Assembly: GCF_041260155.1 (NCBI RefSeq)
Contig: NC_091930.1
Location: forward strand, 46,424,902-46,488,901
DNA: 64,000 nt
From: Ptychodera flava
Lineage: Eukaryota > Hemichordata > Enteropneusta > Ptychoderidae
Direction of reading: 5' to 3'
The notes beneath the pieces are model-generated. The model was given only the letters and a program-made list of their open reading frames with translations, was not told the origin of the DNA and made no database searches. A program made the position numbers and the translations under genes. How positions within the stretch are numbered: position 1 is the first letter of the stretch; each line of letters opens with the position of its first letter. Positions 7,189 through 57,289 of this stretch are shown piece after piece.

Positions 7189-7985
7189 TTATATGTACAG
7201 TAGTTTAATACAGAATCCCTGTGTAACAACTAATCTGTATGGATTATCCTTACACAGTGCAATGTAACGGGGTTTCTCTAACTGACCTTGACCTTTATAG
7301 CTGAGAAATTCACCATCACAACTGAAGTGAACCACTCTATTCCCCCAGTAATCACAAACATATATGCCATCTTGTTGGTGATCAAAACACAAACCCCTAG
7401 CTCCCACTAAGTGTCCCTTGCCAATGTCTCTTACACTTTGCATCTGGTGATTCAAAACATGAACACACATGCTGCCGTTATCTGATACAAAAATCCATTT
7501 CTTATTCACAATCACATCCCTGGGTTTACTGACTTGTCCTTTTTCAGTTCTTGCAATGTGTTCACCAGATTTATTATATTTTCTCACATATCCACTGTAG
7601 TCACCGATGAATATAAAACCATCAGGACTCAAGCACATACCGGTTGGTTGAATTTCTTCTTTGCGTCCAAAACAGTATAAAATCTTGCTTTGTCCAGAAC
7701 TCACCACAACTTGGTTATTATCATAATCACTCATAAAGTATTGGTCATTGTCTTCATCCACTGTGACATTCCATGGATCAAATGGATTTGGGAATGCATG
7801 GAATTTTTGTAAGATGAGATCGCAGCAGAGTTTTATTGGATCAATAACCTGAACTCTATGATTCCCCCAATCACATATAACCCATTGACCGTTGTTCTTG
7901 ATGTATATTCCCTCGGCTGCACTAAATTGTCCCGGCATTGATCCTTTCCCAAACACTTCCAGGACACTTTCCTTGACCAGATAGC
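7189..7985 (-). CDS. Exon 7: six-bladed NHL propeller and stop
   Basis: Acceptor tttgttttcctgctag|GCTAT; phase-1 entry matches exon 6. The exon encodes residues 835-1099 and ends in TAA at 7191-7189. Six blades can be counted, each with a G-rich start and a hydrophobic-Asp turn: [10 protein letters not shown] to [14 protein letters not shown]; then [50 protein letters not shown]; and a last, weaker blade to the C-terminus. Six blades make a full NHL propeller as in TRIM-NHL proteins, but no RING or B-box is present. It could instead be the end of a separate gene; matching phase and strand favour a single gene. Confidence 0.75.
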
Positions 7986-10900
7986 CTAGCAGGAAAACAA
8001 AATCAGAAATAAAGGTCAAAGGTCAATTTGCAAACTACCGGCTCAGTCACAATCAGGGTGCTCTAGAGTGTTTCACTTTTGTAAAAATTTCATCTTGTGG
8101 ACATATCTAAATTTACTAAATTCACAAAGCTTAAGGTTTGGTATATATTTGCTTGAAAAGTTGTGAACCAAACTTTCTCAGTATTTCCATGGCAACCAGT
8201 TCTTTATTGTGTTGACACACCGTCACGGACACTACAAAATATTATGAGTTGATATAGAAATAACATAGTAGACTATACAACATTTGTACAAATATTCATT
8301 TAAAAGTTTAACCAGAAAATATATACATCTGTTGTAGAAAATAAGGTGAATGTATCAGAATTTTACCCAGCTTTGCATGATTTCCTGCAAAATGATTTGT
8401 TACGAAAAAAAAAGAATTTTTTATTTTTTTCTCCCCATGAGCTTATGATTCCTCTAGTTTACAGATTTGCCCTTTAGTACATTAAAATTATTTTGTACTG
8501 CAGTTGTTGAAGTCTTTAGAAACATTAATAGTAATTGCAGAAAAATTTTGCTCATTTTTTGTTAGTTTTCTAGTCATTTTTTGTAGCATGTTAAAAGCGT
8601 CATGGACACTACACATTCAGGAATATGTGTGTGAAACAAACTATTGTTTATTATAACCAGTAAACCTGTAAAAACAGTAAAATTATGACAAGAATTGATT
8701 ACAAACAAATCAAAAACATATTATTAAGGAAGCTTGACATAAAGAATATTTGTAGTACTTTTTTTCAATAACCAGAAAGTTTTATCAGAAATACAACACT
8801 GAATGCAAAAATTCTTGAGATGACTGGTATGTAGACAATGACAACTGGTAGGTAGAAAATGCTATACAATGCAAAACTGTCCTAGTAACACAATAAAGTG
8901 AACAATAAATGATTTACCGAACGTTTGGTTTCGAACATAATATTGTGATCTGTATTTCAGTAGCGTCACGGACACTGCACATTTGAATACTTAAAGGGGC
9001 AACTTCTTTATCAGTTTTAACAGACAATATTAAACACAAATTCTCTATATCAGAAGTCTAATAAAAGTCATGAAGAGTATAATATGGAGTATTTTAAGCA
9101 TTTGGTCAGCATCTATTTTGTATAAGGGGGAAAGAGGTTGCAAATCTGACTATTTATGGTATTTATTTATTTATGGTATTTATTTATTTATTTAGCAGTA
9201 GTGTAGGCTCCATTATGGATCTTTGTCGATAGTGATGTATATAAGGGGAGGATTTATGTCCCGTAATGTTATTTTTCTGTTTTATCCCCTTGTTTGCATT
9301 ATAAGGTTGTATTATTTATGCTTGATAAAGTTTCAGTCGTGTGTTGTTTGTTTATGGAAAGCTATGGCGAGACATACTCGGATCTAGCATGTGGTGTCTT
9401 TTGAATGCTGTGATCCTGCAATCAATGTTTCAAAACCCAAGTGTGTGGTTTCTCCTCAGTCGCAAAGTCCTGTCTTTCCTAAGTTTTTGTGTCAGATGTT
9501 TTGATTTTTAATTTTATATGATTTTTCTTGTCGTCGTTTTCATGTGTTATTGGCTTAAAAAATATAGCCAATATTTCCATATTTTTATCTTGTGTTGAGA
9601 TTTTTTTGTGAATTTTGTTTTCGACAAGTGTGTCTTTTATGTTTTTGCTTCTTGTGTAGGCTGTTGTTGGGGGTTCAGGGAAAAGGGTTTTAATGTTTCG
9701 TCCTTTTCAAGTTCCTCCCAATATTTTGCAAGACTTTCTTTCAAGTCTTTTGTTTTAATGTATGGCCTATATGTTGTTGTGAAGATTAGATTATTTGTTG
9801 TTTCCTTCTTTATTTTTCTTGTATTTTTTGAGTTCAATTCCTGTGTTTGATTTCTGTTGTAAATCTAGTTATTTCTTTTTCCGTGTATTCTATGTTAATT
9901 AATTTGCTTGTAAAGAAATCAACTATCTCCTTGAAATCGTTTGGGTCTTTGGATGTACAGAAGTATCTGAGAATTTCACCTTCAGGTAGTCCTTTAAAAT
10001 TTGATTTGGGTAACATGATTTTCTGTGCAGGTATTGGAATGTTCCAATTAGTTTTCTGTGGGTTTTAATATCCAAAATATTTTCTTGGTTGTGCCTTGGG
10101 CCCTTCAAAATTTTGACGTTGAGAAATGTTATTTTTTCTAGTGATTTCTTAACTGTAAATTTAAATGTTGGGTGCATTTTGTTTATTCTATGGCCGAACT
10201 CTGCCAGTTGGTTTTGTGTTCCAGTAAAAATTATGAAAATGTAATTTCTGAATCTTTTCCAAAAGTCAATCACATTTTGGGTATTCGGAGATGATTTCCA
10301 TTTCCAGTTTATGAAATGCAATCATGGCAATCCCCAGCAATGCATTTCAGCCCATTAAACAGCCACATATTTGGCGGTAGAATTCATTGTTGAATAGCCC
10401 AAAGACTTGAAAGAAAGTCTTGCAAAATACTAGCAGGAACTTGAAAAGGACGAAACATTAAACAAGAATATAAAGACACACTTTTCAAAACAAAGTTCAC
10501 AAAAAGAGACAAAACGTTATCAATAATCTCAACACAAGATAAAAATGTAGAAATAATGATGTTATTTGAAGGCAATAACACATGAAAACATTAACATCAA
10601 CAAGTACAACAAAAACAATTTGGCAAAAATTGCCCCAAAAATACAAAATTATAGATTTCATCAGAAATTCAATATATATTACTTAGTTCATCTATAGAAA
10701 CATGTATGCCAAATTTCAAAACTATCAGACCAGTACTTTTTGAGAAATACATTTTTTGACCAAAAATCTCAAAAATTGCCTTAAAAGTGCAAATTTGCAT
10801 ATTTCTGCACAATTTGAACAAATCTGAAATAGATCATCCCTAGGGACATAGAAATATCAAAGCTATCTAACTGGTAGTTTGAAGAAGATTTTTAAAGATT

Positions 10901-11840
10901 TTTTTACCAAAAAATGACAAAAATTGCCTTAAAAATACAAATATGCAAATTTCACCACAATTTGAACACATCTGTCTGAAGTCACCCTAAGTAAACTGCA
11001 TATCAAATTTCAAAGCAATCAGACAAGCGGTTTCAGAGAAGAAGATTTTTTTACCAAAAACACCAAAAAATGCCCCAAAAATACAAATATGCAAATTTAA
11101 CTACGATTTGACCAAACTTTAGTGAGGTCACCCCAAGTGAGCTGAATAGACAATTTCAAAGCAATTGGACTTGCGGTTTTAGAGGAGAAGGCAATTGTTG
11201 ATGGACGACGACGGACGACAACGACGACGACGGACGACGACGGACGACGACGGAAAATCAACCTATTTGATAAGCTCCGCGTTGCTGACAGCGGAGCTAA
11301 AAACCGTGGAGGAGTAAATATTCTCACTGTTTGTTTGTTTTTTTCTTTCTGAAAACAAAGTTACAACTATGCATTGGATCTAAATTAAGTTGATGCTCTT
11401 GAGCCTTATCAAAGCAGTGATTAACTGCGGCCTTTTAGATCTACATCACTATGTTTTACCTTTATTGACTTTTGGGTACGAGCGTTTCGTCTTTATTCAT
11501 AATTTACATCACATGCACTATCTATGGCCTGAAAATTCGACAGGGGTCGTTGTACCTTAAAATGTCCTTTTGTGAACACTGCATAATTTTCAACAGATTT
11601 ATGGAGCTGATATTAGGTGACCAATATAAATCGGCAATTTTAATGCCGGTCCTCGCAAACCGTTTAAAGGGCCTATGACACTATTTCCAAAGTTGTTATT
11701 TTTTCCCGTCAAAAACCCAGCTGGGGGACCTGTCTATGGATTGCATATTGTGTCAGTTCGGAAAAAATGTGCGCGAATGGCGAAATTTGACTCCTTTTTT
11801 GCTCACGTGTTTACACACGTGAGCATATGTCGTAGCGATC

Positions 11841-11873
<33 letters not shown>

Positions 11874-14800
11874 GTGTCTGTCTGTGTCTGTCTGTCTGTC
11901 TGTCGGTCTGTTGGTCCGATATCTCAAAGACGGCTTATCAGATCAAAATCAAATCTGGTACATAGATTCAGTTAGCAAATGGCAAGAACTGATCAGTTTT
12001 TGGTGGTTCTGGCTTGCATACTTTTTGCTCATTTGCATAATTAATTATTTTAGAAAAAACGGATATTCATTAAAAACGACTACACACAATTTGATGAGAT
12101 TTGCTACAGATGTTGATCACACCAAGATATATCAGTAGTGGGAACCATTACGGGTGACATGAAAGAGCGTTGCTAATTTGCATATTTAATTAACTTTCCT
12201 AATTAGGAATATATGTCTGATTTGACTCGATCAAAATTGACCAAACTTGGTATGTATATTAAAGATACTATGATTTAACATTATTGGAAGTCATTAAGCG
12301 TTTTAACTGCAGCCAATTCCTAATTTACATATTTAATGAACTTTGCTAATTAGAGATATATATTTAAATTGACTTGACCAAAGTTGATGAAACTTGCTAC
12401 ATGTATTGAAGCTTCTATGATATAACAGTTTTGAAAGTCATTAAACATTTTTACTTCAGCCAATTCCCAATTCGCATATTTAATAAACTTTCCAAATTAG
12501 GGATATATATCTGAATTAACTTGATTGTAGTAGTCGAAACTTGCTATATACATCAAATATACTGTGATATAATATTATTGAAAATCAAAAAAACATTTTT
12601 ACTTCAGCCAATTTCTAATTTGCATATTAAATGAATTTTCATAATTAGGGATATTTATCTGAATTGACTTGAACAAAATTGATGAAACTTACTATGTACA
12701 TTAAAGACACTATAATACAATATTATTGAAAGTCATTAAGCATTTTCTCTTCAGCCAATTCCTAATTTGCATATTAAATGAACTTTCCTAATTAGAGATA
12801 TATATCTGAATCAACTTGACCAAAGTTGACAAAACTTGCTACATATATTGCAGATACCATGATACAACATTGTTGAAAATCATTAAGCATTTTTACTTAA
12901 GCCAATTCCTAGTTTACATATTTAATGACCTTTGCTTATTAGGGATATATACTGGATTTACTTGATCAAAGTTTGCAAAACATGCTATGTACATTGATGA
13001 TTATACCAGGTTAAAACAATATCAAAAGTCATTTCACATTTTCATGTCAGCTAATTTATAATTTGCATGTCTAATGAGCTTTCACAGCTCGGCATATATG
13101 GCTTGAAGGACTTGGCCAACGGTAATTACACTTGCTATATAAAGTGGTGATACAATGACAGCAGTAAAAGAACTTTGATATTTTTATTTCAGCTAATTAC
13201 ATATTTGTGTACTTCATGACCTAATCGGCGGTGATTATTGTTCATTACGTTGATCATAATATTTTCAATGAAGTTGCAAACATGTGGTAAAGGTCAAAAT
13301 TTACACATAACTGCAATATATAATGAAACTCGTGAGCATTTTCAGTTCATATCTGGTTCATGCCTGGTGATCAGGGGACCACTTTGCACCCGAGCCAGGC
13401 AGCGGTATTTGCATATTGACCAACAGGTAAAATTGACGTCATTTGTTCCACGCTATTGACATGAAAGAGTACTTAGCGGTCCTTGAATAAATTAGACCAC
13501 AAACAAATGTCAGCTATAACGGTGCTCACAGGTGCCAAGTAAACACTGACAAGGAAGCCACACCAGTCAGTGGTCCAGCTGCAGGGACTTGTCAAGTTGC
13601 TTCCAGCGAGGACAGTGTTGACCAGAATTCAGAAAGCGATTTCGAGGGGAATTGGCTTGAAAGCGCAAAGGCAACCCCTGGCATCGACCTTTGACAGAAC
13701 TATCATGTCCTTGGAGCACGATGGTGCAATCGACCCATCTTCCCGTGCATTTTCAGAGCAAACGAATCCTGCAAAAAGTGGTGTGTTAGGCCTATTTTGT
13801 ACATGTTTTGAATGAAGAAAAACAAAGAAAGCTTGTTGCAGCATTTTCGGTCGCTATTTTGAATCGCCGTCTTCACTATTGTGTAGATACAGGAAGCTTC
13901 CTGCCGCACAAATGTTTCCCCATAAATGAGGATGTGACATCGAGTGTCATCCTTCTTGTAATGTTTAATTTCCACATTTAGCACGAAAGCATAGTATAAC
14001 AATCAGATAGCCTGACAAGTCATTTTTATTTACTCGATCGGCGCGGCGGTCGGCCGTACGCGACATGTGACCATTGGTGATCTCGTGAAAAGACCATGTC
14101 ACTAAAAGCAACTAAAACATTTAGGCACTAAACTTACAATGTTCTCTCTTGCGCTGCGTGCTGAGTGTACGTTCTGAGCAAAGGAAGCCCTTGCCTCACA
14201 CCCTTACGGACATGAGATTTGCGAAGGTGTGAAAGACTGTTTGCCGGTATTAAGATAAGTCGTCGGCTGAACTTCGAAAAGCCGAAAAAAGTGGAACGAG
14301 TTTGGCTAGGGGTACACGCCCACTCGCAACTTTACTTGCCTTTTATCCGGACAAAGGGGGCGATACACAATGCAAGGCAGTGACGTAAGCCAACTTCAAG
14401 ATCCAAAGAGTTATTTTACGTTTAGTTGTATGGGCATGTCATAGGCCCTTTAATTCATCAGAAGTCTGCAGTTTGTTATTGCTTAACCTTTAAAGTCTGA
14501 TACGCGGGCCGAAAGGTGGCCATGACCTTCTGCTAGGTTACATCCTTGTGTATAAATATACGGAAGTGTGTAACGTTTGGTTCACTTGTACCTGTAATCA
14601 ATACCTGTTGGTACTTTATGGAAGCTCTATAATATTGGCAAGTCTGTACATGTATTTGGAGCAAAATCAATATGATTAAAACAATAGAAACAACAAATGT
14701 TCTTCAATTTTATAAGCGAAATATAACAAAACAATATTCGTTGCTTGTGGCTTTTTATGTCATATGGTAGCTAATTAAAACGAATTAAAGGGCCATTATT

Positions 14801-17800
14801 TGTAACTTTTGACCATTTTTACCTCGGAAAAATTCCATGTTGGAGGCTCATATTTGTTGCAAAATGTTGTTTTACAAAGAAACAAACATGATTAGTGATG
14901 TTATAGCCACATAAACTGCTAATTTTTGTTCAAACGTGCTGCCCTACCGAGCTCGTTTGTTGACGTCTGGCATGCTCAGCGTGCTGGGGAGAACGCAGAT
15001 ATGGTGACGCCGCGATCACGCGAGATGTACAATTTCACGTTTATTGCGGGATCAAAACAACATCGCGTCGTGGATTGCCAGACATCTGGCTACGCAACGT
15101 GCTCGGACAATGGACTACGACGTAAGTACCAGGCATAAGTAATGAATATTTATTTTGAAATTGCTGTAAATGGCTCGCGCAGGTGCAGAAGAATGCCTAC
15201 GTTGCAATCCGCGTGTCAACAGAGTTTGTATTTCTGTCCGGACAAGAATTGAAATTTTCGTTGTAAAATCACATGTTATTTAGTTGTAGGGCACGTAATG
15301 TTTCCGAATAATATGCGATTCTCTGTTATTTGACAGCCTATTCAACATGAGCCAGTGATCATTTCAATCAAAACTAACGGAAAAATCGCCAAGAAGATAC
15401 AGCTAATGGAACTTTAAGGTAACAATTACTTGTCTGTATATATGTAGGTAAGATTACAGAAACTACACATGGGATTCCTTTGGACCTTGTCAGGTATGCT
15501 GCCACGGAAGTACCTAGCGGACAATACCATTATTTTTAGGGTGCCTGACGGGTGTGAAGGGCTAAATGTAGCCGATAGCACAGAGTAATATCATAGACAG
15601 AGTGGCAACACTTGCATGCCTTTTGTTCCATGGTCGTCTCTGTAGACTATTGGCTTTTCATATTAAAATGAGCTTAAAAGGTGTTAAACTTTTTGGAGGC
15701 TTGGTTTGTGTTGATAATTACACGAGATTATGCGAAACATACGACGAGATGGCATCGTACTGCCAGTCGCGTAGCAACATAGTTACTTTGTGAGCTCTCA
15801 GGCCAGAAACACTGCCTCACGCCAATCAAAACATAACACGCCAGCAGTTTCATAAACATGTCCTTTCTTGGCGCACGTGTAAAAGACGGTATGACTGACC
15901 GTAAACCATTGAGTAAAACCAGACAGTATCGATAAAAGACTTTCAAATTTTGTTCAAACACACTCATATATATTCATAAAAATATGAGAGGAATTTTTAA
16001 AAACGGTAAAACCCACTTTCCTGAAGCTCAAAACACTCCCCTTTTCGCCAGCACATCATTCCGATCAGCACCACACGACAACAACAACACAAGCTTTGTC
16101 GAACATACTTTCGCTGAACAATTGGTGAAAATCCGAAAATTACCGAAGGGTGCATGGTCGGCACTCTTCGGAAACGAGAGCCAAGAGCTTCGTGAGGCGA
16201 GGCAAACATGGATTGCTTACGTAACCGCTTCACGCCTTAAACAATAGCTGTTGCCACTCTGTCTGATATTACTCTGTGCCGATAGACAGCACGGTTGCCC
16301 AAGTTCAACTATGCACTAGTTCAATATGACTGTGGTTTTACGACTTATCCGGACAAAGTAAAGTCATATATTCTGTCTTCTCAAAGCTATTCACTAAGTT
16401 CTAAAAACATCCGTTTAAATAAATGCGTTGGCCTAAGTTGAACTACTTACTGTGGTGTGGTAAGCTCCATGATTCAACTAAAGGTCAAGTACATTAATAA
16501 GTGCTGCTGTAGAATAGCATTGTGAAGAAAGGTGCCAAAATGTATAGGCAAAAAGGGGTTTTGCTCGACTAAAAAGGTTGTTGTAGAATGTGTGAAGTAG
16601 GATGCCAAATCGCAAACGACATCACAGGACAGTAAAATTTGCATGGAGTGAATATGCTTTTCACATCTTCAGAAATAAATATGACAAATTTTTCATTGGG
16701 TGGTGACTGGTCTCTTGGCCTTCAGCGATAGTGGTATTCTTGCAGTCAATGGAAAGAAAAAAGCTGCCCTATAGAGATATGACTACTGCCGCGAGAAGCA
16801 CGACTACTTATCCCCCCCTTCCATTAGCATGCATATTCAGCCCCTCACAGCTGTCGGCCACCCCCAAAAATAATGGTACTTCTATGGCAGCATACTTGAC
16901 AAGGTCCTTCCTTTTAGCCTGATGCAGAATCGTATAACACTCACCTTTATTAACCCGTTCCATGTCACTCTGCGCCTTATCAAACTCGTCCTTGCTTGCT
17001 TCAAACTTTTCTTTCACAGGTGTAGCCTGCTTTGTGATGTCTTCCCTCTGCATCATTAGTTTTTGACCAGCTTCATGCAGTACTGCTTTGCTTTGGGCAA
17101 AATGTCTACCGGCACAAAGTTTCAGCTGGACGAACTCGGTGACTTTGTCATCATCCTCTTTGTGGAAAGAGCTGGTTTCAGCGTTCAGAGTCATTCTGAG
17201 TTCATCCCGTGTTGTTTGAAACTGCCTGAACTTTGCTCCATTGACGTGGACATCAGCTGTGACCTTCAATTGCTTTGTAACAAACGATGATCTGTGGCCC
17301 TGTAACTCCTCCACACTGAAGTCATCTCTACTAAGTAATTCAGAGATGGTTTGGTTGTCCCGTATCTGCATCTGTGACAGGAGTAGATTTAGACTGTCCA
17401 CTGTATGGTGCCGGGTAATATCCTCACGCGGTGCAGCCTTAGTTCAGTTATTGCAGCAACACTACGTCGACGAGATGGAGTTGGCACTGAACCTGATAAG
17501 ACGAATGCAATCACAGTTTGTGAAATCCTTGACAGTATAATCCAGGCTGCCATTAATATTGTAAAGATATTACCCACCGTTTTATCTTTCAAACTCTTAT
17601 TTCTGATAATTCCCAATGCGGAATACAGGGAGTCTTTACATCAATGATTGGTTTTGTCTTGTGATTTTTCACAGCGGACTTAATTTAGAGAGGTAGCTAT
17701 AGTCATGAGTTTATTCATAATATATTCATCAAGGTAAGAAGAGCACTAGTATGTGATCATTGCAGTTGAACACTTTCTCTCAAGAGACTTTTGTGAACAC

Positions 17801-20800
17801 ATGCCGGGGAATACTTTAACAGAGTTTTCATTTTATAAGCATTCACAAAAAAGGCAGAACGTTTTCATCTGTAAGGCTTACACAAAGTCTTTAGACTTTA
17901 AAATGTGTTTTATTTTTCCCATTTTATGCCGACGAGTTAAATGCTCTCCCGTCGATGTTTTTTGTTTAAAAAATGTCATCTTACACTTGTTACTTGTACC
18001 ACGGCTAGTCAAATTTTTGTGTTGTTGCATGTTTGATAAGTGAAAGCAATCTGCATTTGAATGCAACGGATAATTATAATTGTGTTTCCAAAGAACAACA
18101 AATGTATCTCACCATTTGCCATTTCTATTTACTACCAACTATTGACAATATGGGAATTTAGCCAGACGAAATTCCTGCAAGTGTTATCGTTTACACTAGA
18201 CTGCCTTCATTTGCCTTCATTGTCAATTTAAATAGAGTACTTTATAAGTGTACCATTACCTGTCAAGAGTGGTATTTCCCTCTTACAGAGTAAATACTCC
18301 TGTACTGGAATGTAGATATCAAGGGTTAGGTAGTGAGCTTGAATCTTGCTGAGTAGTGTTGGTGTGATGATTGTAGAATGGATGGTTTTGTCCAGTCGTC
18401 CACTGACATACTCACTCCACAGGGCTTCCAGTGCTTCTAATGATCCGCATTTCATCACATAACGGAGACTCCCCTTGTCAACTTTCGTCACTTCCAAATC
18501 GTCGTGTACATCACTAAGAACTCTGCCCGTCCCCTCGGTTGTCGGTCTATTTCCTTCTCTTTGATAAAATCCATTTTCTACGTTTAACATAGATGCACCA
18601 TTCACTGCATGTCCTTGCGAAGTTCCAACTTGTACTCCAATGGTACCTGAATAAAGAACATACAAGTCAGCATTACTAGGCAATTGTTGAGTTTTAAATC
18701 CTACTGTTGACAATTGATTTTAAGCCCGGACTATAATTTGTTTATTGAAAAATAAATTTGTGTTTTGTATGATATGAATTTTCTTTCCGGGACACACTCT
18801 TTATGTTACAACATATTTTGGGACAGAAGAAGAAAAACGTACTTGTTTCTTTAAAAATTGAAAATATTATTAAAAGTTACAGCCATTGTTAATTTTAACT
18901 ACTGAAGGCCTGGAAATAACTGTTTGATTTATTTTGGCAATCAAAAAGTCTCATTTTTCATGGCTGGAAGGTAGTTGATATAAATAAGTTTTCGGAGGTT
19001 AAAATTAGTGAACAAATGCGATACTTACAAATTTCTCGATCGGAACTTGGTGCAGATTGAGAGATAGAAAGGCTGCCTGCTGAAGTTGATGGTTGACTGT
19101 TGCCATGTTCTGATTCGTTTGATTCTAGGGATGAAAGAAGTCAACGAATCTTTGAGTTTCATACAGAAAACATGACATGTACCGCTACATCCTTCCGTAA
19201 CTACTTTTTCACGTAAAATTACGCGATACACAACATCTTAGTACCATGCAGGACATTTAGCACAAGCCGGTATGATTGTAATTCAGGAGACAAATTACCC
19301 AAATTCAGTGTATATCCGCCAGCAGCGAGTGTTATTGTTACCATATGATATCAACAAAGTGTGTATCTGCGATATTTAAAGGTTTGTTTCACCGTAGAGT
19401 GAGCATCCAAACAGGAAATTCAAAGCGCAATGATGTAAAGCTCGCAAACTCGGTTATGGCATTAGACTCAGAAAAGGATCAGAAGGAAAAAAGTAACTAT
19501 AACGCAGATATGGCGGAGCAAACTTATCTACAAAACAGGTCTATGACCAAATTTTAAAATTTTTTTTTTCTGCTTTTTGTCATCTTCATGTATGTTGAAT
19601 CATTTTGTTTAAGGTAGTTAGCGCCTCGAAATTGAAAGACTTAAACTTTTGCTCAAACTTTCCCCAATGCAAACTTTCAACCATTCTATTTCGGAATCAA
19701 GAATAAGAATCGAGGATTTATTTTTACTAGAAATACAAGTTGCCCTATATTTCACCATATTTGAAATTCACAACGGCCGCCTATGTGTTATCTTTATCGG
19801 GAAATCAAAATTCCTGAATATCACAGAATTAGAGCCGATCCATTTTTATTTACCTCGTAAGCTTCAAAATAAATCCCCACAAGTGGTGGGCCAAAAGAAT
19901 GTTATGGAAGTTTGAGAATCCAACTACCTGTGCCTGAGGCCCGTTCTACCATAAATTTCCTTCGTTTCGGCACGGACCTTCTATGCTTGTTGAGGATGGA
20001 AGTTCATCATCAGTATCTTCCTATTATTATATCATAATAATTAGTACATTAATATTTTACCACAACCTGCGTGCGAAGATATAACAAAGCGTACCTGTAC
20101 TTAGAGGGTTGGGGATGTGCCATTCAGATGTCGCTCGTTGAAGATGTTCATGTATCTCCTTTTCGAAAACAGAGTTTACATCTTTCATTTGTTCAATCAC
20201 TGTCGTCTTCAGCATCTCTCTCATCTTGGATGCTTGATTCAAATACATTGGATAATCTTGAACGATTCGTATCATCTGATCCTTTAGCGCATCCGGACTA
20301 CCCCGCATTTCAACAACCACATGTGGCCGGTAATCAACAAAATATTTACTGATGAAGATGTCTCCTTCAGATGCAGAAGGGACCAACATTGGTTTTCCTA
20401 TGGCTATCATTGTAACGATAAATGTCAGTGAATCGTTCGACCGTGGGGGAACAACAACTAGATGTGAATGACGCACGTCCTTGATGAACGAGTCATTTTG
20501 GAATCCTTTTGGGATTACGGTGAGTTTTGAGTGTGGTTTTAAACGTGCGCCAATTTCTTTGTCGTCATGTTTATTCATACAGATGATTTCCCATTTCGGT
20601 GGGTCACCCAGTTTTTTGAACTGATCATAACTTTCGGCCATAATATTGAAGGCTCTCGGAAGAACAGAAGAATGATTCAACTCTGATACCGCGAAATGTT
20701 CAAAGGGGGTCATAATACGAAAATGGCTACTATCGGGAAGTTTTCTCGGCAATGGGATATCAAAATAACATTCTCCTGGTAGTGGCAAAAGCTGCAGATG

Positions 20801-23475
20801 TTTGACTGGCGGGTCTTCATCATATCTATAATCAAAATGATCGAAGACTTTTGGTCCCAAGGACAGAACAGCAAATGCACGGTAACTTTGTTCATCGAGC
20901 AATTTACATTTATGTTCAAACACTTCTTTGCCATAGGGAAACATCTCATGACATAACTCCTCTGGATTCCATACATTGACATGGATATACTCAGAGTCTG
21001 GAACTACATTGTCTTTAATGTCAAGTGCTACAGCGGAGGATGTTATTCCAAAGCCGAAGACAAACATCAATCCTTTGATTTTCTTTAAGTGAGGAAAGAA
21101 TGTGTCATAAGCCTGTAACCAAATGTAACTAGGTTTTTCCTTTTCAAAGAGAGGTTTCCTTGCAGGTGACACCAAAGTGACTCCTAATCGCTCAGCCTCA
21201 CGCACTGCGTTGGCGTCTTCTTCCAAAATTGTACAGTGAATGTTAAGTCCACAAGATTTCAACTGATCTATTAGTTGGTATAACGATGCTGCAATACCAC
21301 CGTGGATGGATGACCCCCATCTCTCGCACAAAATCAATGCCGCGGGGCAGTTCACACTAACATCCGACCTCTGAAAATGGAAATATATAGTTAAGTCAAA
21401 GAAAGTGTCATGGTCGGCTAATATACGTTCTCTGGCAAATATTCAATTACGCACAAACGTGCACAGAGATATGTAAACAGACTATAAACCATATTGCCGA
21501 AGCTTGATTGCTCGATATGGTCACTTATTAATAAAGATGTTCACGTAATTACCCGCGAACCCCTTTTGACTGTTGTCCAATACTATTTTCCATGAAAGAA
21601 GTTCCCTATTGTATTCAATATCAACTTTGATTACAGAGTTACACATTCCACACACACACACACACACACACACAACACACACATATATATATATATATGT
21701 ATAGTTAATTGCACGAGTAGGTGTGCTGTTACAGTTGTAATCACCACACTTATGGTCAGGAACTTGTAAACATCACGAGGCCGAAGGCCGAGTGATGTTT
21801 ACAAGTTCCTGACCATAAGTGTGGTGATTACAACTGTAACAGCTCACCTACGAGGTGCGATTAACGACTTATACCACGAAAAACAGGCCAATCTTCTCTA
21901 AAATTTGAAAATTACTGTCAATAAATCGTCTACTTTTGATTTGAATACCCACAATGGAATGGAGTGATCCATTGTACGTCGAAAGGTTCACAGAGGTCAT
22001 TATGCACCTGGCATGCGAGTTTTGGAGAATGACCTATCCCAGACAAGTAGGACAAGGGCTCTGGTCAACTGCAAATCTGCATTTGAATAAGGGCTACAGA
22101 GTGGTATAATGCACCTGTGTAGAAGGAAACTATTAGTCTGATTGGTTAAATAAAATGGCTTGCCTTACTCTATCTTGTTGGCTATTGGCTAGTGAGAAGG
22201 AATTCAATCTGTAGATGCATGTGATTGCCTCGTGGATGCATCAGGCTTTGAATACCATTTTCGTGTTTTCGACTGGTCAAGATGGATCTTGACTTGTCTG
22301 ATCTGATGACCCAAGAGACTTCCTAGAGTTCCATGGACGGCCATGTAAAAACAACCAAAGTGGATTTTACACGGGCAAACTGCCCTATTAGAGCAGCCGC
22401 TACTATGGAGCGCATAAAATCCACGATGTGTACTTCAACTTATAAAAAAGTACTTGGCGATGATAACACCGGACGGGATTGTACTATCGATGACCCTTGC
22501 CAAGGGATAATCAAGTTCTCCTGCCAGAAAATATACGTCTTTACACAACGCGAATGTGCAAGATGACTTGGCTAGACTGCCAGCACACTGGATATTCTGG
22601 CAAGGTAATTAATTCTTTTACTAAAATATTTATACACAAAACGAATTCTGTAAAGTTATAAAATTAAATTCATTGACCAAAACAATTTGTTGTGTGTGCG
22701 GCAGTATCACAAAATTTCTTTCGACTATTCCACAAACGTTACAAAAAGGCTGTACTTATTTCCATGCTATTTGTGACATATGTTTTGTGTTTGATAATTG
22801 TAGGTGAATGCGGCAACATCTCTGTACCATCAGGGATTCGATGAGCAGCTTATCAAAGAACAAACAGGTCACAGATCAGATGACGGTTTACGCGCCTCAA
22901 ATGCATGTCTACTGTACAACAAAAGCATGTGTCGAATATATTACTACCACCTCCATCTAGTGTTAAATCAGAGGAATCTGTAAGTAAACCAGTTTCTCAA
23001 GTTACGACAAAACAATGTAACAAAACAGACAAGATTGGTCCAACCCAAGAAGACACCGAATCTAAAGATGGACAGTCTTCATCAACAAATCATGTTGTTT
23101 ACATTGAGCATGGTCCAAAGAAAGTTAAAATTGAATTATAAAATGTGATGCTATAACATATCAGTTGAACAAATTGTCTTCATTTTGTTATTGAATGTGT
23201 GTGAATGCTTTAGACATCTCGGCTTGACCTATTGTTCTCTTGCAAATTAGTAATCAGTCATACTTTTTTTCATATTTAAATAAGTAATCACTACACTTTT
23301 ATTGATATGATAATGATTTTCTTTCATTAAAGTGTGGTGATTACTTATTTACATATGAATAAAAGTATGACTGATTACTTATTTTGCATAAGAACAATAG
23401 GTGTCAGTCGTGTTTTCAGGGATAAATGGATGGCAAGAACAATAGGTCACATGACCTGGAGTGGTATAAATATAT

Positions 23476-23545
<70 letters not shown>

Positions 23546-23623
23546 ATATATTTATATATATATATAAAATATTATATATGTAGATATGAAAATATGGAAC
23601 TTTGTAATTAAAATTAAAACATC

Positions 23624-23665
<42 letters not shown>

Positions 23666-23713
23666 TTACACATATATCAAGTTACACATTCCATATATAT
23701 ATATATATTATCG

Positions 23714-23804
<91 letters not shown>

Positions 23805-24228
23805 ACCAAATCAAATGTTAACATACCGACACAATCGTTAAATGTTTTATGTACCACAAAGAACAAAAATCACAAATGTCAAAGTTTTCTTTTTAATGTA
23901 GTGCTGGATGGTTTTCATGAACTTCTTTGATTGATTACTGAGGACAAAGTCAATTATTTTCTAAGCAAGAAGATACACAAGCTAACTTTATCCTCAGACC
24001 TCCGATCATAATAACTAGACTTCTGATGTACCGTTTTATTCTTTTCTGTTTTACTGCATTAAAATTATCGATATCACGTACCGGAATTTTCTTCTCTTTT
24101 ACTTCAAAGTCCTTATTCTTTTTATCATCATCATCATCGTCGTCATCAGTATCACCATCTCCTTTATCATGTTTTCTCTTCAAACCATCTCTACCTTCTC
24201 TACTTCTACTAGCGACGATTCCTGCCAT
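7189..24228 (-). CDS. GT4-like / TRADD-N / membrane segment / NHL propeller protein (7-exon gene model)
   Basis: Exons 24228-24082, 21370-20095, 19124-19029, 18646-18260, 17633-17493, 17400-16945 and 7985-7189 join in frame with GT-AG introns. They total 3300 nt, that is 1099 residues plus stop. Domains in order are: N-terminal acidic and Lys-rich tail (1-49); GT-B glycosyltransferase-4-like domain (about 50-460); Ser/Gln/Pro linker (475-506); TRADD-N-like adaptor (about 552-631); hydrophobic segment (about 654-682); charged helical region (683-834); six-bladed NHL propeller (835-1099). Known biology: TRADD-N and GT4 domains have been described together in metazoan and bacterial counter-invader and apoptosis systems, and NHL propellers are typical sensor or ligand-binding modules. 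Inference: an intracellular, membrane-linked immune sensor or adaptor. The first intron is phase 0 and the other five are phase 1. Two acceptor/donor sites around exon 5 are weak, and an unseen exon in the 9-kb last intron is possible. Confidence 0.8.
7986..9500. other. Start of 9-kb last intron, no exon seen, thrice-repeated motif
   Basis: AT-rich non-coding DNA. A motif close to GCGTCACGGACACTACACAT occurs near 8221, 8597 and 8965, spaced about 370 bp, with poorly conserved sequence between. A TTTA-rich run lies at about 9150-9195. No open frame with domain similarity was seen on either strand. Confidence 0.5.
9510..10600 (-). mobile_element. Decayed Penelope-like reverse transcriptase fragment with an inverted partial copy
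   Basis: On the minus strand from 10321 to 9637 several overlapping frames read like the end of a Penelope-type reverse transcriptase: [38 protein letters not shown], then a YLHRKS and a [10 protein letters not shown] block. At least one frameshift separates the frames near 10016-9923, so it is not functional. About 10400-10600 on the plus strand repeats, inverted, the sequence of about 9750-9540, for example GACTTGAAAGAAAGTCTTGC on opposite strands. Such inverted partial copies are typical of Penelope insertions. It lies inside an intron of the TRADD-N/NHL gene and is a different family from the copies at 27-32 kb. Confidence 0.6.
10620..11305 (+). mobile_element. Helentron/DINE-like non-autonomous element (tandem AT-rich units, GAC microsatellite, 3' stem-loop)
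   Basis: Four degenerate units share 'caaatttcaaagcaatcagac', 'aaaaattgccccaaaaatac' and 'gcaaatttcaccacaatttg' type blocks. They are followed by a GACGACGG microsatellite (about 11204-11252) and a stem-loop, AGCTCCGC (11273-11280) pairing GCGGAGCT (11291-11298), then CTAAAAAC. The layout matches the structure known for Helentron-associated elements such as Drosophila DINE-1. The 5' limit is approximate. Confidence 0.5.
11664..14453. mobile_element. TTAA-flanked DNA transposon (non-autonomous)
   Basis: AGGGCCTATGACA at 11668-11680 and its exact reverse complement at 14437-14449 form 13-bp terminal inverted repeats. Each is immediately flanked outside by TTAA (11664-11667 and 14450-14453). 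TTAA target duplications are characteristic of piggyBac and Kolobok superfamilies. I see no transposase frame inside. Most of the left half is a second element (11795-13200) nested within it. It lies in the 9-kb intron of the TRADD-N/NHL gene. Confidence 0.65.
11795..13200 (-). mobile_element. Helentron/DINE-like element carrying a 147-bp tandem array
   Basis: Read on the minus strand: about seven tandem units, then GAGATATCGGACC, a (GACA)n microsatellite (plus-strand TCTG run at about 11841-11906), and a perfect stem-loop, GCTCACGTG pairing CACGTGAGC (11801-11824), ending in an A run. The 'catatt' of successive plus-strand units begins at 12181, 12328, 12475, 12623, 12770, 12917 and 13066, giving a period of 147 +/- 2 bp. 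It is nested in the TTAA-flanked element and has no coding capacity. Confidence 0.55.
14454..15571. other. Intronic DNA without recognised gene
   Basis: No exon-like frame or domain was seen. TTAAAGGGCC at about 14788 resembles the left end of the TTAA-flanked element, but I found no matching right end. Confidence 0.4.
15572..16285. mobile_element. 700-bp inverted-repeat DNA element with 7-bp target duplication
   Basis: The element spans 15579-16278. Its left terminus CACAGAGTAATATCA and its right terminus TGATATTACTCTGTG are exact complements. The inverted repeat continues inward for about 30 bp (GACAGAGTGGCAACA) apart from a 2-bp insertion on the left. CCGATAG flanks both sides (15572-15578 and 16279-16285). 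The short interior frames are unrecognised. A 7-bp duplication is uncommon; P- and Dada-type transposases are among those that can leave this length. Confidence 0.7.
16945..17400 (-). CDS. Exon 6: charged alpha-helical region
   Basis: The exon has acceptor caccatacag|TGG and donor AATAAAG|gtgagt, phase 1 on both sides. It encodes residues 683-834, rich in Lys, Glu, Asp and Gln with heptad-like hydrophobics (for example [11 protein letters not shown] and the DITKQ to DMERV stretch near 801-832). That fits a coiled coil or helical stalk between membrane segment and propeller. Intron 5, between exons 5 and 6, is only 92 bp, whereas the next intron is about 9 kb. Confidence 0.72.
17493..17633 (-). 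CDS. Exon 5: hydrophobic membrane-type segment
   Basis: The exon encodes residues 636-682. A Lys-rich stretch (NKSLKDK) is followed by a hydrophobic span, roughly [16 protein letters not shown] then TVIAFVLS, consistent with one kinked or two short membrane helices. TRADD-N proteins in invertebrates often have such a segment next to the adaptor. The acceptor (gatgtaaag|AC) has a poor pyrimidine tract and the donor (TCAG|gttcag) is non-consensus. They were chosen because they keep phase 1 on both sides; the alternative ttatcag acceptor breaks the frame. Confidence 0.6.
18260..18646 (-). CDS. Exon 4: TRADD-N-like adaptor domain
   Basis: Acceptor ttctttattcag|GTACC and donor GACAG|gtaatg are both phase 1; the exon encodes residues 507-635. 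The first 45 residues are a low-complexity linker. The domain follows from about 552: a strand with DKGSLRY, the helix [18 protein letters not shown] (574-591), then TPTLLSKI and a strand ending in a conserved Cys-Lys-Arg-Glu turn. This pattern (strand, EALExLWxxYxSGxL helix, strand, xCKxE) matches metazoan TRADD-N domains, which mediate homotypic contacts linking sensors to effectors. The assignment rests on pattern recognition, not a profile search. Confidence 0.75.
19029..19124 (-). CDS. Exon 3: Ser-rich linker
   Basis: The exon lies between tttcatccctag|AATC and GAAATTT|gtaagt. It is 96 bp and symmetric in phase 1, so it could be skipped without shifting the frame. It encodes residues 475-506, rich in Ser, Gln, Glu and Pro, with no fold expected. 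It connects the glycosyltransferase-like domain to the TRADD-N exon. Confidence 0.75.
20095..21370 (-). CDS. Exon 2: glycosyltransferase-4-like (GT-B) domain
   Basis: The exon has acceptor ccattttcag|AGG and donor ACAG|gtacgc (phase 1), and encodes residues 50-474. The start shows the GT-B first strand and glycine loop ([19 protein letters not shown], about 57-75). The family signature [10 protein letters not shown] lies near 220. The C-terminal Rossmann half carries [11 protein letters not shown] and then [16 protein letters not shown]. In active GT4 enzymes the PxR is followed by E-x7-E. Here both positions are replaced, by Asn361 and Thr369, so catalysis is unlikely although the fold looks complete. 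Relatives in invertebrates are often annotated as inositol-phosphate glycosyltransferase-like. No signal peptide is visible, so the domain is probably cytosolic. Confidence 0.85.
21650..21699. repeat. (CA)n and (TA)n microsatellite
   Basis: A CA run from 21650 followed by a short TA run, just before the hairpin at 21703 in intron 1 of the TRADD-N/NHL gene. Confidence 0.9.
21703..21867. repeat. Near-perfect 165-bp hairpin (foldback MITE)
   Basis: Left and right arms of about 70 bp are reverse complements with very few mismatches. They include GTTACAGTTGTAATCACCAC and CACTTATGGTCAGGAACTTG on the left and their complements on the right. The loop is GAGGCCGAAGGCCGA. The outer ends read GTTAATTGCAC and GTGCGATTAAC. 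It is non-coding and lies in intron 1 of the TRADD-N/NHL gene. The loop core GCCGAAGGC recurs in the palindromes at 32.1 and 35.5 kb. Confidence 0.85.
22551..23141 (+). pseudogene. Crypton-type tyrosine recombinase C-terminus, frameshifted
   Basis: Two plus-strand pieces join in phase 0: 22551-22604 (donor GGCAAG|gtaatt, reading [17 protein letters not shown]) and 22804-23141 (acceptor attgtag|GTG, reading [16 protein letters not shown] then [13 protein letters not shown]). This is the C-terminal catalytic part of the Crypton/DUF3504-type tyrosine recombinases also found in ZMYM and KCTD1 relatives, with the HR box visible. One base is missing at 22897-22898, exactly where the family has the nucleophile Tyr. 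Past it the frame continues with a Ser/Lys-rich tail to a stop at 23141. It sits inside intron 1 of the TRADD-N/NHL gene on the opposite strand. It could be a dead Crypton, a decayed host gene or a sequencing error. Confidence 0.6.
23227..23402. mobile_element. 176-bp inverted-repeat MITE
   Basis: It begins ACCTATTGTTCT and ends AGAACAATAGGT. The inverted arms continue with AGTAATCAGTCATACTTTT and AAGTAATCACTACACTTT, each matched on the other side, around a short AT-rich centre. No coding capacity. Confidence 0.75.
23466..23801. repeat. (AT)n microsatellite cluster
   Basis: Three long AT runs with short interruptions. Apparent Tyr-Ile open frames here are artefacts of the repeat. Confidence 0.95.
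24082..24228 (-). CDS. Exon 1 of the GT4/TRADD-N/NHL gene: start codon and charged N-terminus
   Basis: ATG at 24228-24226 sits in a good context (A at -3, G at +4). The preceding in-frame codons include TAA two codons upstream, so this is the first in-frame start. The exon encodes 49 residues: a Ser/Arg-rich start, a [10 protein letters not shown] segment, a run of eight Asp (28-35), then a Lys/Glu-rich tail. The donor is CCG|GTACGT in phase 0, matching the phase-0 entry of the glycosyltransferase exon at 21370. The basic/acidic composition could act as a localisation signal, but no specific motif is certain. Confidence 0.72.
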
Positions 24229-27476: not shown

Positions 27477-28301
27477 TTATGTGAATATCGGGCGGATGTT
27501 TAACCCAACAGGTGAAAGAGTATTGAGTTTCTGGATCCATAGTGATTCGATTTGTTTACGTAGCTTATCATCTGACTGATATATTTGCACTATCGCGAAA
27601 ATTGTAATGTCGTTGATGTCATGCTGATCAGAGTTGAAATGAGTGGCTACAGGGGTGTCTTTATTATGGCGAGTAGTCGAGAGTTGATTGTTGAAACGTA
27701 GTCTTAGTGAAGTCTTAGTTTCACCCACATATTGTTTTGAGCAACGTTTGCACGTGATGAGATAAATAATGTTCTTACTTTGACAGCTCATATTGTTTCT
27801 GATTTCATGGATGGTATTATTGGCGGTGCTAGTGAAGTGGGTGATATTCGATGAAAATTTGCAAACATTGCATGCCCTTTTTGAGCCGCATTTAAAGAAT
27901 CCAGGTTTGTGTGTAATGGACGTACTAATGTCGGAGTGAACCAGAAGATCGCGGAGATTTCTGTTACGACGGTATGATATTATAGGTGTATCTGGTATCG
28001 CTTGTTGGGGTTGTTTATTATGGTATTGCAGTAAGGTTGTTCTGGGAATCGCCTTAGCACGTTGTATTTGGTTTACCACAAGATTTCGTGGGTAGCCTCG
28101 TTCCAAGAGAGAAAATTGTAGTTCAGAAAGGTGTATGTCTCTCCATTGAGTTTCTGAACAAATGCGACAAATTCGAATGGCCAGGCTATATGGTAAACCC
28201 AGTTTAACATGTCTTAGGTGTGAGGAATTAAAATGAAAATACTGATGGGTGTCTGTAGGTTTTTCGTATAAATCGGTCATAATTTTGCCGTGATCATCCA
28301 C
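27477..28301 (-). pseudogene. Penelope-like GIY-YIG endonuclease domain
   Basis: An uninterrupted frame of about 274 codons. It starts with the end of the reverse transcriptase (LYEKPTDTHQYFHF, LPYSLAIRICRIC) and continues through PIISYRRNRNLRDLLV and a Cys-rich linker to the nuclease: NIIYLITCKRCSKQYVGET, then LRLRFNNQ and QIESLWIQKL near the end. This is the order known for Penelope-like elements. The upstream frame breaks mean the whole polyprotein is not encoded. Confidence 0.85.
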
Positions 28302-29980
28302 ATGAACTTTGACATCTAGAAATCATGCTTGTCTTTGATTCCTCCATCATGGTGAATTTGAAAGTGAGATGATATGAATTGATATACTTAAAGAAGGCAG
28401 TAATGGCTTGCGTGCCTGCTACGAAAATACTATAAATGTCATCGATAAATCGATGCCATAGAAGCGGTGTTGAGGGTGCATCCTGTAGAATTTTTTCTTC
28501 CAGATCACCCATATAGATAATTGCATTATCTAGGTGCCATCTTTTGGCCCATGGCTGTGCCGTGAATTTGTAAGAAGTGTTGATTGTTGAAGACAAGGTT
28601 ATTGCTGTATAGGACTAATTTTGAGAAACGTATGGTAGTATTTGTGGGTGGGGTCTTGTCGGATCTGTAATCTAAGGCCTTACGACAGGCTTGTATGCCT
28701 TCCTCTATGGGAATACTTGGTAAAGAGAAACCACGTCAAATGTTATCATGGAGCTTCCTGGAGGAATGTGTTCTAGATTATGGATGATCTGTAAAAAGTG
28801 GGTCGTGTATTTGATATATGATGGCAATTTCGCTGATAGTGGTTGGAGATGATGATCTATGTATTCAGAAATACCTTGCGTTGGATGGTTAATAGTGGAA
28901 ATAATTTGTCTAAATCGGATGCCCTCCTTGTGTATTGTGGGCAACATGTAAAATGTGCCTGGTTTGGGGTCGTTGCAAATGAGATAATCCCGGGTTGACT
29001 TGAAATATTACCCTGTTGGAATTTATCATTTATGGCTGCTTTGATAGAAATATTGCTTTTGTTAGTGGGATCTGATTTGAGTCTTTTATAATGTTTTGTA
29101 TTGTTCAGAATCTTATCAGCGTCTAGGATGTAGTCTGACCTGTTCATTATTACCATAGCTGACCCTTTGTCTGCTGGTTTGAAGATCCAGTCCCTCTTCT
29201 TCCTGAGTGTTTCTAATGCACCTCTCTCTGATTTGGTGAGATCATGGAGGTAGGAAGAGTCCTTCATAGTTCTGAATTTTGAATGATCTTCTGTATCTTC
29301 TTTGGTCAAAGTGATGAATGCCTCTAGAAATGAATCACGGTTCGGAGGTGGTGTGAAGAGATTCTTTTTGCGGAATGGTTCATTGACATATTTTGTCGTG
29401 TCCTCTGTTTCATCGTCGAAGAAATATTCCGCCAAGCGTAGACGACGGTGGAAAGTGTTCATATCGATGGCTAGTTGAACTTTGTTAGCTTTCGTCGGGG
29501 TGGGGCAGAAAGACAAGCCCTTATCCAGGAGGTTTATTTGGTGTTCCGTGAGTTTGATTTGAGTTACATTGATGACCGTAGTTGATTTCTTGTCTGGTGA
29601 GTGGCTTCGCAACTACGATGGTGTCGTAGAAGAGTTCTGCTTGTTCATGTTTGATGGCAGGGTTGTCAGTTTTTGCAGATAGGTGTGCGTATTCTTTTGA
29701 TATCAAACTTGGTTTTGATTCCATCCCTGTGTAACTTTCGTTGTTTTCGAGCATATTCTTTTATGAGAAGATTAAATAATGTTTTTGACGCATTATGTAA
29801 AACCTTGTTCCATTTTTCTGTGAAAGATAATGACTTGCCGACGACATTTGGACTAAGTTTGAGTTTCAATCCCTTGGGAACATTATTGTTGATTTTGTAG
29901 ATTCGAAGGCTGCTTGCATGTATTTGGCAATTTAGTAGTTTCTCACTCGATCTCTTTATATTGTTAACCAGTTTGTACAT
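28294..29980 (-). pseudogene. Penelope-like reverse transcriptase, frame-broken
   Basis: Frames at 29980-29666, 29612-28857, 28947-28705 and 28596-28294 together read as one protein with shifts between them. Visible features are the KPADKGSAMVIMNRSDY block upstream of the fingers, a palm segment ending TFDVVSLYQVFP, and the catalytic motif RFIDDIYSIF with two Asp, followed by HLTFKFTM. These are typical of Penelope-like elements. The frame changes indicate decay. Confidence 0.8.
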
Positions 29981-30262: not shown

Positions 30263-31275
30263 GGGACCGTTCAGTTTTTACGGCGGGGGAGGCGGCAAAA
30301 TCCAGGGGGGGGATCATCGTAATTTTGGAATCCGCAAAGGGGGAGGGTCATCGCTTTTTCACTGGTAGGAAAGGGGGGGTCACCACATTTTCAAAAACAT
30401 AATACCAACAATAAAGTTCACTTTATGCCATGGCCATGATTGACCCTCTTTACTGGCGGGCCGCCTTCGGTGGCCCACTACAATAAATATACATTATTTA
30501 TTACCCATGACCCTCTTAACAGGCAGACGCCTTTGGCGGCCCACTCCAATTAGGTTTAGTTCATGCAATGGCTATGATCCGACCGTCTTTACCGGCGGGC
30601 CGCCTGTGGTGGCCCACTACAATAAATTGACTTTATGTAATACCCCACGGCAATCTACTGTGAAATTCCGGTTGAAGCCGCGGCTTGTATTAGAAACATT
30701 TTTGAGGGACCCCTGGGATCACGCACTGAATAATGGTAATGGCCGCGCGCCTTCAGCGGCCCTGTCCAGTAAAGTCTACTTTATGCAATAGCCATGATCG
30801 ACCCTCTTTACCGGCGTCCACCTTTGGTGGCCCACTAGAATAAAGTTTACTTTACGTAATGGCCCATGACCCTCTTAACCGGAGGGCTGCATTTGGCGAA
30901 CCACTCCAATAGAGTTTACTTTATACATTGTCCATGGACATGAGTTGTCTATGGAAATGAAGTTAAAAAATTGCCTTACAGTCGTCCTTATTAACAGACG
31001 TTTCAATGGATGTGGCTGAGAAGTTTGTGCACTGGCATCTCTGCTACACGAATAAAGTGCGCTGCGTACCGGAGTTCAAATCCAAACCATGCGGGTAAAT
31101 TTGACATATGGGTTTTGGTTATTTTTCAGGGGGGGGGGGTCAATCAATTTTTTCGTCTGACAAAGGGGGGGTCATCTTTTTTTCACAAAAATATGCAGGG
31201 GGGGTCTATGTTTTTTGAACACCGGCGACGAGATTTTGCCGCCCCCCCCCCAGGCCGTAAAAACTGAACGCTCCC
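30263..31275. mobile_element. Harbinger-like MITE, copy 1 (TAA target duplication)
   Basis: Ends are GGGACCGTTCAGTTTTTACG and CGTAAAAACTGAACGCTCCC, one mismatch apart as inverted repeats. TAA is duplicated on both sides (30260-30262 and 31276-31278), and the empty site is visible in Penelope element A. Three-base TWA duplications are characteristic of PIF/Harbinger. Subterminal regions are runs of G or C. The interior contains several diverged 'cttta(c/t)cggcgggccgcc' type repeats. No transposase. Confidence 0.8.
31011..31084 (+). ncRNA. tRNA-like (A-box/B-box) segment inside Harbinger-like MITE
   Basis: TGTGGCTGAGAAG resembles a pol III A box, and GAGTTCAAATCC about 55 bases on resembles a B box. 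The same segment occurs inverted in copy 2 near 36290-36365. Probably a captured tRNA-derived sequence; function unproven. Confidence 0.35.
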
Positions 31276-54685: not shown

Positions 54686-54899
54686 CTATAAAAACAAGTC
54701 ATTGACAATGACATAGTCCCCACTTGTAATAGGAGTATTAGTCTTGATGGGGCAGGGAAATGAGGTCATTAAGAAGTATCACTAAAGTGTATATGTTCAG
54801 ATCTATGGACACATAGGTCTATGTCATTGTTCCCAATTTGAAACAAGAGGCATGTCTAAGTTATGGTTCTAAATCGGGAAAAAGATCAAACCTCTAGCT

Positions 54900-56886: not shown

Positions 56887-56945
56887 CTGTGTCACTGCAT
56901 CCTTTTGCAATATGAATACGATGAGAAACTAAATTTTTATTTATC

Positions 56946-57277: not shown

Positions 57278-57289
57278 AAAACTAAAAAG

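Follow-up and report, generated by a model that had tools for sequence, protein, structure and literature searches.

A Ptychodera flava gene disrupted in its current assembly belongs to a GT4-conflict, TRADD-N-like and NHL family with a hypervariable propeller rim

The DNA considered here, referred to as the window, is a stretch of 64,000 nucleotides from the hemichordate Ptychodera flava (contig NC_091930.1, positions 46,424,902 to 46,488,901). A gene on its minus strand belongs to a P. flava family in which a GT4-conflict domain, a TRADD-N-like domain, a helical stalk and an NHL propeller follow one another in a single chain. The window copy is disrupted in this assembly, and its product stops soon after the TRADD-N-like domain. 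On balance we favour a reading in which this gene is a disrupted member of the family and the intact members are soluble immune sensors with a diversified, exchangeable propeller. The propeller combines a nearly fixed scaffold with a hypervariable rim, and its similarity across the family begins abruptly at an exon border.

The family comprises at least 24 annotated P. flava proteins (P0001-P0024). A first protein search, with the protein model of a first-pass annotation of the window as query, scored a capped set of 7,984 candidates and gave 8 P. flava proteins among the matches listed. The acidic N-terminus of the query probably crowded this search, and later searches were made region by region. 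Two region searches extended the set to 24. One of these was likewise capped, at 7,998 candidates, which may have hidden relatives in other species; the homologue searches also depend on shared five-residue words. In the other, all 224 candidates were scored and 21 matched, of which 19 were close (76-100% identical, with at least 34% of the query covered) and all from P. flava. Two distant NHL proteins (P0025 and P0026) are kept outside all family counts. The contig listed is 50.6 Mb for 23 of the 24 proteins and 3.1 Mb for P0017. In the 64-kb window itself, tblastn with P0001-P0008 finds no second copy.

The order GT4-conflict, TRADD-N-like, stalk and NHL in one chain is real in the paralogues. 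For example, P0001 (1087 residues) and P0003 (1089 residues) have the full order. The two Pfam families PF20706 (GT4-conflict) and PF01436 (NHL) occur together in 10 of the 24 proteins in precomputed annotation. Ten have the whole stretch between the start of the propeller and its last blade, although the final residues of P0001 are odd; five of these (P0001, P0003, P0010, P0011 and P0019) also have the start of GT4 and are thus complete from GT4 to the last blade. The first-pass annotation had assigned this whole architecture to the window gene; it holds for the paralogues and fails at the window locus as assembled.

At that locus, the joined exons match the NCBI protein P0002 (669 residues) letter for letter. 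The disruption lies in the exon that encodes the stalk. P0001 and P0003-P0008, the remaining seven proteins from the first search, read across this exon unbroken in an alignment of eight, passing without interruption from the TRADD-N-like domain to a block with SVAAITEL, or a variant of this sequence, at its end, and on to the stalk. In the window the reading frame switches near position 17440: by tblastn, one frame serves down to about 17437 and the other from about 17440 or slightly later. Six of the seven paralogues match both frames, on either side of the break, and P0005 matches the second frame only. Because the frame changes near 17440, the P0002 model enters the shifted frame and the annotated product ends, at residue 669, in a shifted tail. 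A complete protein encoded by the locus as assembled is thus unsupported.

The first-pass annotation had joined seven exons into 3300 nucleotides, or 1100 codons including the stop, and the arithmetic is correct. Its exons 1-4 and 7 are upheld, and its exon 6 (17400-16945) survives as the larger part of the true exon 17492-16945. Its exon 5, read as a membrane segment (17633-17493), is an artefact, intron sequence that bridges the frameshift. The upstream splice site of this segment has no pyrimidine tract, and the AG|GT at 17493|17492 that had been taken as its donor is the true acceptor of the stalk exon. None of its 42 five-residue words is present in the 26 proteins fetched. Together with the 92-base intron that was placed after it, the segment steps over the frame break. 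The phases of the seven exons do fit, but this agreement is worthless as evidence because 32 different fillers between exons 4 and 6, the proposed one included, keep the frame, as does leaving out exon 5 altogether. Nor is its hydropathy (up to 1.75 over 19 residues) distinctive, since stretches within the GT4 domains of the family reach 2.03; in 20 of the 24 proteins the most hydrophobic stretch lies inside that domain. No transmembrane segment conserved in the family was found by hydropathy, no dedicated predictor having been run. A seven-exon, membrane-anchored sensor of 1099 residues, to which we give practically no credence, is rejected on the absence of exon 5 from the fetched paralogues, the frame break and the splice-site evidence. 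The case is a caution: exons picked by eye may agree in phase and yet span a frameshift, giving rise to a spurious membrane segment.

The frameshift itself may be real or may come from the assembly. If it were an assembly error, the gene would encode a full protein from GT4 to NHL without a hydrophobic segment, and the other exons are indeed open, exon 7 up to its stop. The public gene model, however, ends at the shift, and the window copy carries 8 private changes in the 233 scaffold columns of the NHL alignment described below; in 14 of the 19 other copies the number is 0 to 1. These changes lean toward real decay. They are tempered by P0019, with the same number, and by P0005, with 13, both of whose propellers look intact. 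We regard an assembly error as rather unlikely. Another explanation is that the gene functions in a short form, its GT4-TRADD-N product acting without a propeller as a regulator or decoy. Exactly this product of 669 residues is annotated by NCBI, and P0004 likewise ends within the stalk. Against this, the NHL exon further downstream is still open and agrees in phase with the stalk exon, and P0002 owes its tail to a conserved exon read in a shifted frame and not to a new one. A functional short form seems to us quite improbable.

We now turn to the propeller, which the disrupted window gene shares with its relatives. The assignment of the last exon to NHL is firm (PF01436, 57.6 bits against a cut-off of 20), and the six blades described in the first-pass annotation are borne out. 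An alignment of 20 NHL domains, some partial, includes the NHL exon of the window as one row; P0002, P0004, P0009, P0012 and P0013 have no row. The altered tails of P0006, P0008, P0016 and P0020 were trimmed beforehand, and the odd last residues of P0001 were retained. It has 30 rim columns and 233 others. The rim is defined as five positions per blade: P-2, P-1 and P+1 around a proline position, and D+1 and D+2 after an aspartate position. Across all six blades, and in register, a near-fixed scaffold is interrupted by variable residues. Mean entropy is 1.88 over the rim columns and 0.21 over the others, and mean pairwise identity, taken from the 17 longest rows (136 pairs), is 36.2% at the rim against 91.8% in the scaffold. 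Twenty of the 22 columns with five or more kinds of residue are at the rim (p 1.3e-20), and the figure becomes 17 of 18 once P0005, P0007 and the window copy are removed. P-1 and D+1 are variable in every blade, and P-2 strongly so in blade 1 only.

Exposure alone is not the cause of this variation because the polar columns of the scaffold are nearly as quiet as the apolar ones (mean entropy 0.26 and 0.16). A comparison with zebrafish LIN41 is instructive. Excerpts of Kumari et al. 2018 (PMC5908797), on which the statements about LIN41 contacts rest, name 14 of its residues as RNA contacts. On the TRIM71 chain, with which the letters of all 14 agree, every one falls at P-2, P-1, P+1, D+1 or D+2, in blades 1 to 5. 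When blades are taken in order, the 14 equivalent columns of the P. flava alignment have entropies of 1.16 to 3.22. At twelve central columns of the rim, R, D, W, Y, G and N are the commonest residues, a mix that may suit ligands of either kind, protein or RNA.

The propeller and the front of the protein probably have different histories. The TRADD-N-like domain sets clade B (P0017-P0024) apart from the other members with a support of 100/100 in a tree of 24 rows. Identity of the clade B proteins to P0001 is 23-29% in GT4 (for the seven that overlap sufficiently, partial ones among them) and 28-33% in TRADD-N, but 82-91% in NHL. Over 133 pairs, identity in TRADD-N is 72.3% within the two groups and 31.3% between them, whereas identity in NHL is 84.4% within and 84.6% between, and the two measures are uncorrelated (Spearman -0.007). 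In an NHL tree of 18 rows clade B is scattered, five changes being needed against a mean of 5.7 for shuffled labels. The transition is sharp. In an ungapped comparison between groups A and B, made without the window copy (77 pairs), identity is 5-7% at residues -60 to -10, 20% and then 35% just before the junction, and 72-100% in the ten residues past it; gapped identity of the clade B stalks to P0001 is 16-20%. The junction coincides with the border of exon 7 in the window, as read from the window DNA. From these comparisons we infer that a single phase-1 exon, encoding the propeller, has been copied among genes that differ strongly in their remaining exons. P0006 (isoform X2) and P0007 (isoform X3), which are 98% identical in NHL and 48% in GT4, would reflect either recent copying of the exon or two fronts spliced to one NHL exon.

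At the front of the chain, the assignment of exon 2 to GT4-conflict, made in the first-pass annotation, is as firm as that of the propeller (PF20706, 61.5 bits against a cut-off of 26). Eight of nine family members match PF20706 at E up to 1, and the domain has a GT-B fold of two Rossmann subdomains. A sequence search of the PDB with a GT4 alignment of seven rows gave two weak matches only. The 50 rows listed for each of two further searches hold glycosyltransferase and propeller matches only; TRADD structures are missing from these rows, which has no bearing on the TRADD-N assignment. The E-x7-E motif is a mark of catalytically active retaining GT4 enzymes. The segment where its canonical glutamates are expected, placed through a weak HMMER alignment to 9v0l (E 2), is covered in 20 of the 24 proteins and holds no glutamate in any of them; given this lack, transfer of sugar is a less likely function for the domain than ligand binding or regulation. 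A search of genome contigs for bacterial relatives of the domain yielded 64 pattern matches, none of which was confirmed.

The reading of exon 4 as TRADD-N is supported in part. The window copy matches TRADD-like_N (PF20694) with 19.0 bits, under the cut-off of 23.7. Seven of nine segments match at E up to 1, the best at 0.00037, and three of eight proteins match at E up to 0.1. A sequence search of the PDB with a TRADD-N alignment of nine rows found no match up to E 10. The exon also carries the uS motif, described in excerpts of Kaur et al. 2021 (PMC8195603) as a tiny residue followed by Ser or Cys in the b2-b3 turn: Ser or Cys is present in all 24 proteins and is preceded by Gly in 20. In the predicted model of the whole chain, the strands and helices fit an RRM-like b-a-b-b-a-b fold in their order.

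Several points weigh against the reading of the family as diversified sensors. With regard to the rim, two of the 22 most variable columns (13 and 175) lie outside the rim classes, four of the six P-2 positions hardly vary, and the classes were picked after seeing the alignment, the list of LIN41 contacts being the sole independent check. The first part of the propeller is of low confidence in the predicted model. With regard to exchange, the rejection of clade B by the NHL tree is marginal (AU p 0.048). All TRADD-N Pfam scores shown are under the cut-off, five of the eight proteins have no TRADD match at E 0.1, and exon 4 folded alone gives a poor model (pLDDT 60.5), too poor for a structure search. 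Finally, 14 of the 24 gene models are without part or all of the propeller (P0002, P0004, P0006, P0008, P0009, P0012, P0013, P0015, P0016 and P0020-P0024), and 11 are without the start of GT4. The ends of P0004, P0008, P0009, P0016 and P0020 resemble, by eye, frame-shifted NHL or stalk sequence. The incomplete models are either pseudogenes or the outcome of annotation or assembly trouble in a repetitive family, and the family may be decaying or badly annotated.

A rival explanation is that the rim is unconstrained and drifting while strong purifying selection and gene conversion hold the scaffold, with no selected diversity of ligands. That many copies look broken and that the window copy stands out in its private scaffold changes would fit such drift, and the comparison, being made at the protein level only, also leaves room for it. 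On the other hand, polar scaffold residues stay nearly fixed, and the variable residues are of the very classes that contact RNA in LIN41. Most of those contact residues are identical across the LIN41 proteins of different species (PMC5908797), whereas their P. flava equivalents vary. We therefore judge an unconstrained rim to be unlikely and keep to the reading of a diversified propeller. The features of the window gene are collected in Table 1.

Table 1. Features of the GT4-conflict/TRADD-N-like/NHL gene in the window (positions are those of the window)
Feature	Position	Strand	Remarks
Annotated product P0002	24228-24082 + 21370-20095 + 19124-19029 + 18646-18260 + 17492-17389	-	This join reproduces P0002
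Exon 1	24082..24228	-	Start codon; acidic/basic low-complexity N-terminus; identical to P0002
Exon 2	20095..21370	-	GT4-conflict domain; Pfam match about 20204-21337
Exon 3	19029..19124	-	Ser-rich linker; in P0002, similar in P0004
Exon 4	18260..18646	-	TRADD-N-like domain; Pfam match about 18384-18491; uS motif Gly-Ser
Exon 5 of the first-pass annotation (hydrophobic segment)	17493..17633	-	Intron sequence, no exon
True exon 5	16945..17492	-	Stalk; single exon in paralogues, broken here by a frameshift near 17440
Intron, 8,959 bases	7986..16944	-	Between stalk exon and NHL exon
Last exon	7189..7985	-	Six-bladed NHL propeller; single phase-1 exon; five rim positions per blade

Repetitive sequence is found in and around the gene. 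In its 9-kb intron, a frame at 9923-10321 (minus strand) resembles a reverse-transcriptase fragment by eye and has no Pfam match above cut-off. Upstream of the gene, at 27477-29612 (minus strand), lie overlapping open frames that resemble a decayed Penelope-type retroelement, the type being our own reading; one of them has a GIY-YIG domain (32.4 bits against a cut-off of 22.6). Two pairs of stretches have near-identical translations, 30995-31267 (plus) with 36089-36379 (minus) and 32615-33046 (minus) with 36699-37205 (minus), and point to a dispersed repeat. Long tandem arrays occupy 54881-56767 (226-base unit) and 33811-34751 (180-base unit), and a 26-base array at 56947-57273 appears as a repetitive peptide within the open frame 56884-57285.

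The combination of GT4 and TRADD-N in hemichordates is already known. Kaur et al. 2021 (PMC8195603, here again in excerpts) describe GT4-TRADD-N followed by leucine-rich repeats (LRRs) in hemichordates, cephalochordates and cnidarians. As in the P. flava family, GT4 precedes TRADD-N, a repeat domain follows, and the expansion is lineage-specific in marine invertebrates. The repeat domain there is made of LRRs and here is an NHL propeller, and the P. flava GT4 domain is without the E-x7-E glutamates. Those excerpts describe neither a hypervariable rim nor an exchange of exons, and the word NHL does not occur in the text of the article, figures and source data aside. Likewise, neither a GT4-TRADD-N-NHL protein nor a hypervariable NHL face is named in the titles and abstract openings found in the open-access literature. 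What is new is the contrast between rim and scaffold in NHL. The Branchiostoma DED-TRADD-N-WD40 proteins from the same source also join TRADD-N to a variable C-terminal propeller, for which recombination is proposed as a means of diversification. They have WD40 repeats and an N-terminal DED in place of NHL and GT4, and their repeat number varies, whereas complete P. flava copies keep six blades. The TRIM-NHL proteins (LIN41/TRIM71, Brat, TRIM2 and TRIM3) differ in another way: neither RING nor B-box is among the 14 Pfam families matched by nine members of the P. flava family.

Nearest in logic are the fungal HET-D and HET-E proteins of the HNWD family. According to excerpts of PMC1805685, they undergo concerted evolution between family members, and four positions per repeat are diversified as two pairs, in the d-a loop and the b-c turn, at the top of the propeller. 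A diversified propeller face and exchange among family members would be common to both systems. Both also have two variable places per blade, and by their spacing the P. flava sites are probably the same two. In the fungi, where positive selection was put to the test, WD repeats are the units of exchange; in P. flava, compared at the protein level only, similarity extends over the entire exon of the propeller. The P. flava family is outside the HNWD family because Pfam scans of nine and eight of its proteins give no match to a NACHT NTPase and because it has NHL instead of WD40.

Based on these observations, a mechanism may be outlined for the intact members. The immune-sensor role proposed in the first-pass annotation is retained as the probable function, in a protein that would be soluble and probably cytosolic. 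The NHL propeller would be the recognition end, its fixed scaffold presenting up to five rim residues per blade. These residues, which sit where LIN41 holds RNA, would be diversified from copy to copy, so that the ligand would differ for each copy. Ligand binding may be relayed through the helical stalk to the TRADD-N-like adaptor. The adaptor may use its uS face to recruit a partner, in the way that TRADD, according to the excerpts of PMC8195603, contacts the MATH domain of TRAF2 through Ser67 in 1F3V. The GT4 domain, which keeps the GT-B fold, would bind a ligand or regulate.

In our reading, the NHL exon is a recognition cassette, diversified in the germline and exchangeable, that belongs to a soluble sensor and appears to resemble the propellers of HET-D and HET-E. 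A broader proposal, which we hold with about even confidence, is that hemichordates evolved a germline receptor repertoire in which genes with different GT4-TRADD-N fronts exchange an NHL exon, a complete propeller whose scaffold is fixed and whose rim is hypervariable. It would be an independent animal counterpart of non-self recognition by fungal WD propellers, using the same two places per blade. This bears on the old question of how many recognition specificities are built in animals without antibodies. If the rim is under diversifying selection, the family would offer a compact system in which a single scaffold carries about 20 strongly variable residues, at contact positions known from a LIN41-RNA structure, and in which natural variants are many and the adaptor is defined. 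If the broader proposal is true, two kingdoms would have reached the same use of the propeller.

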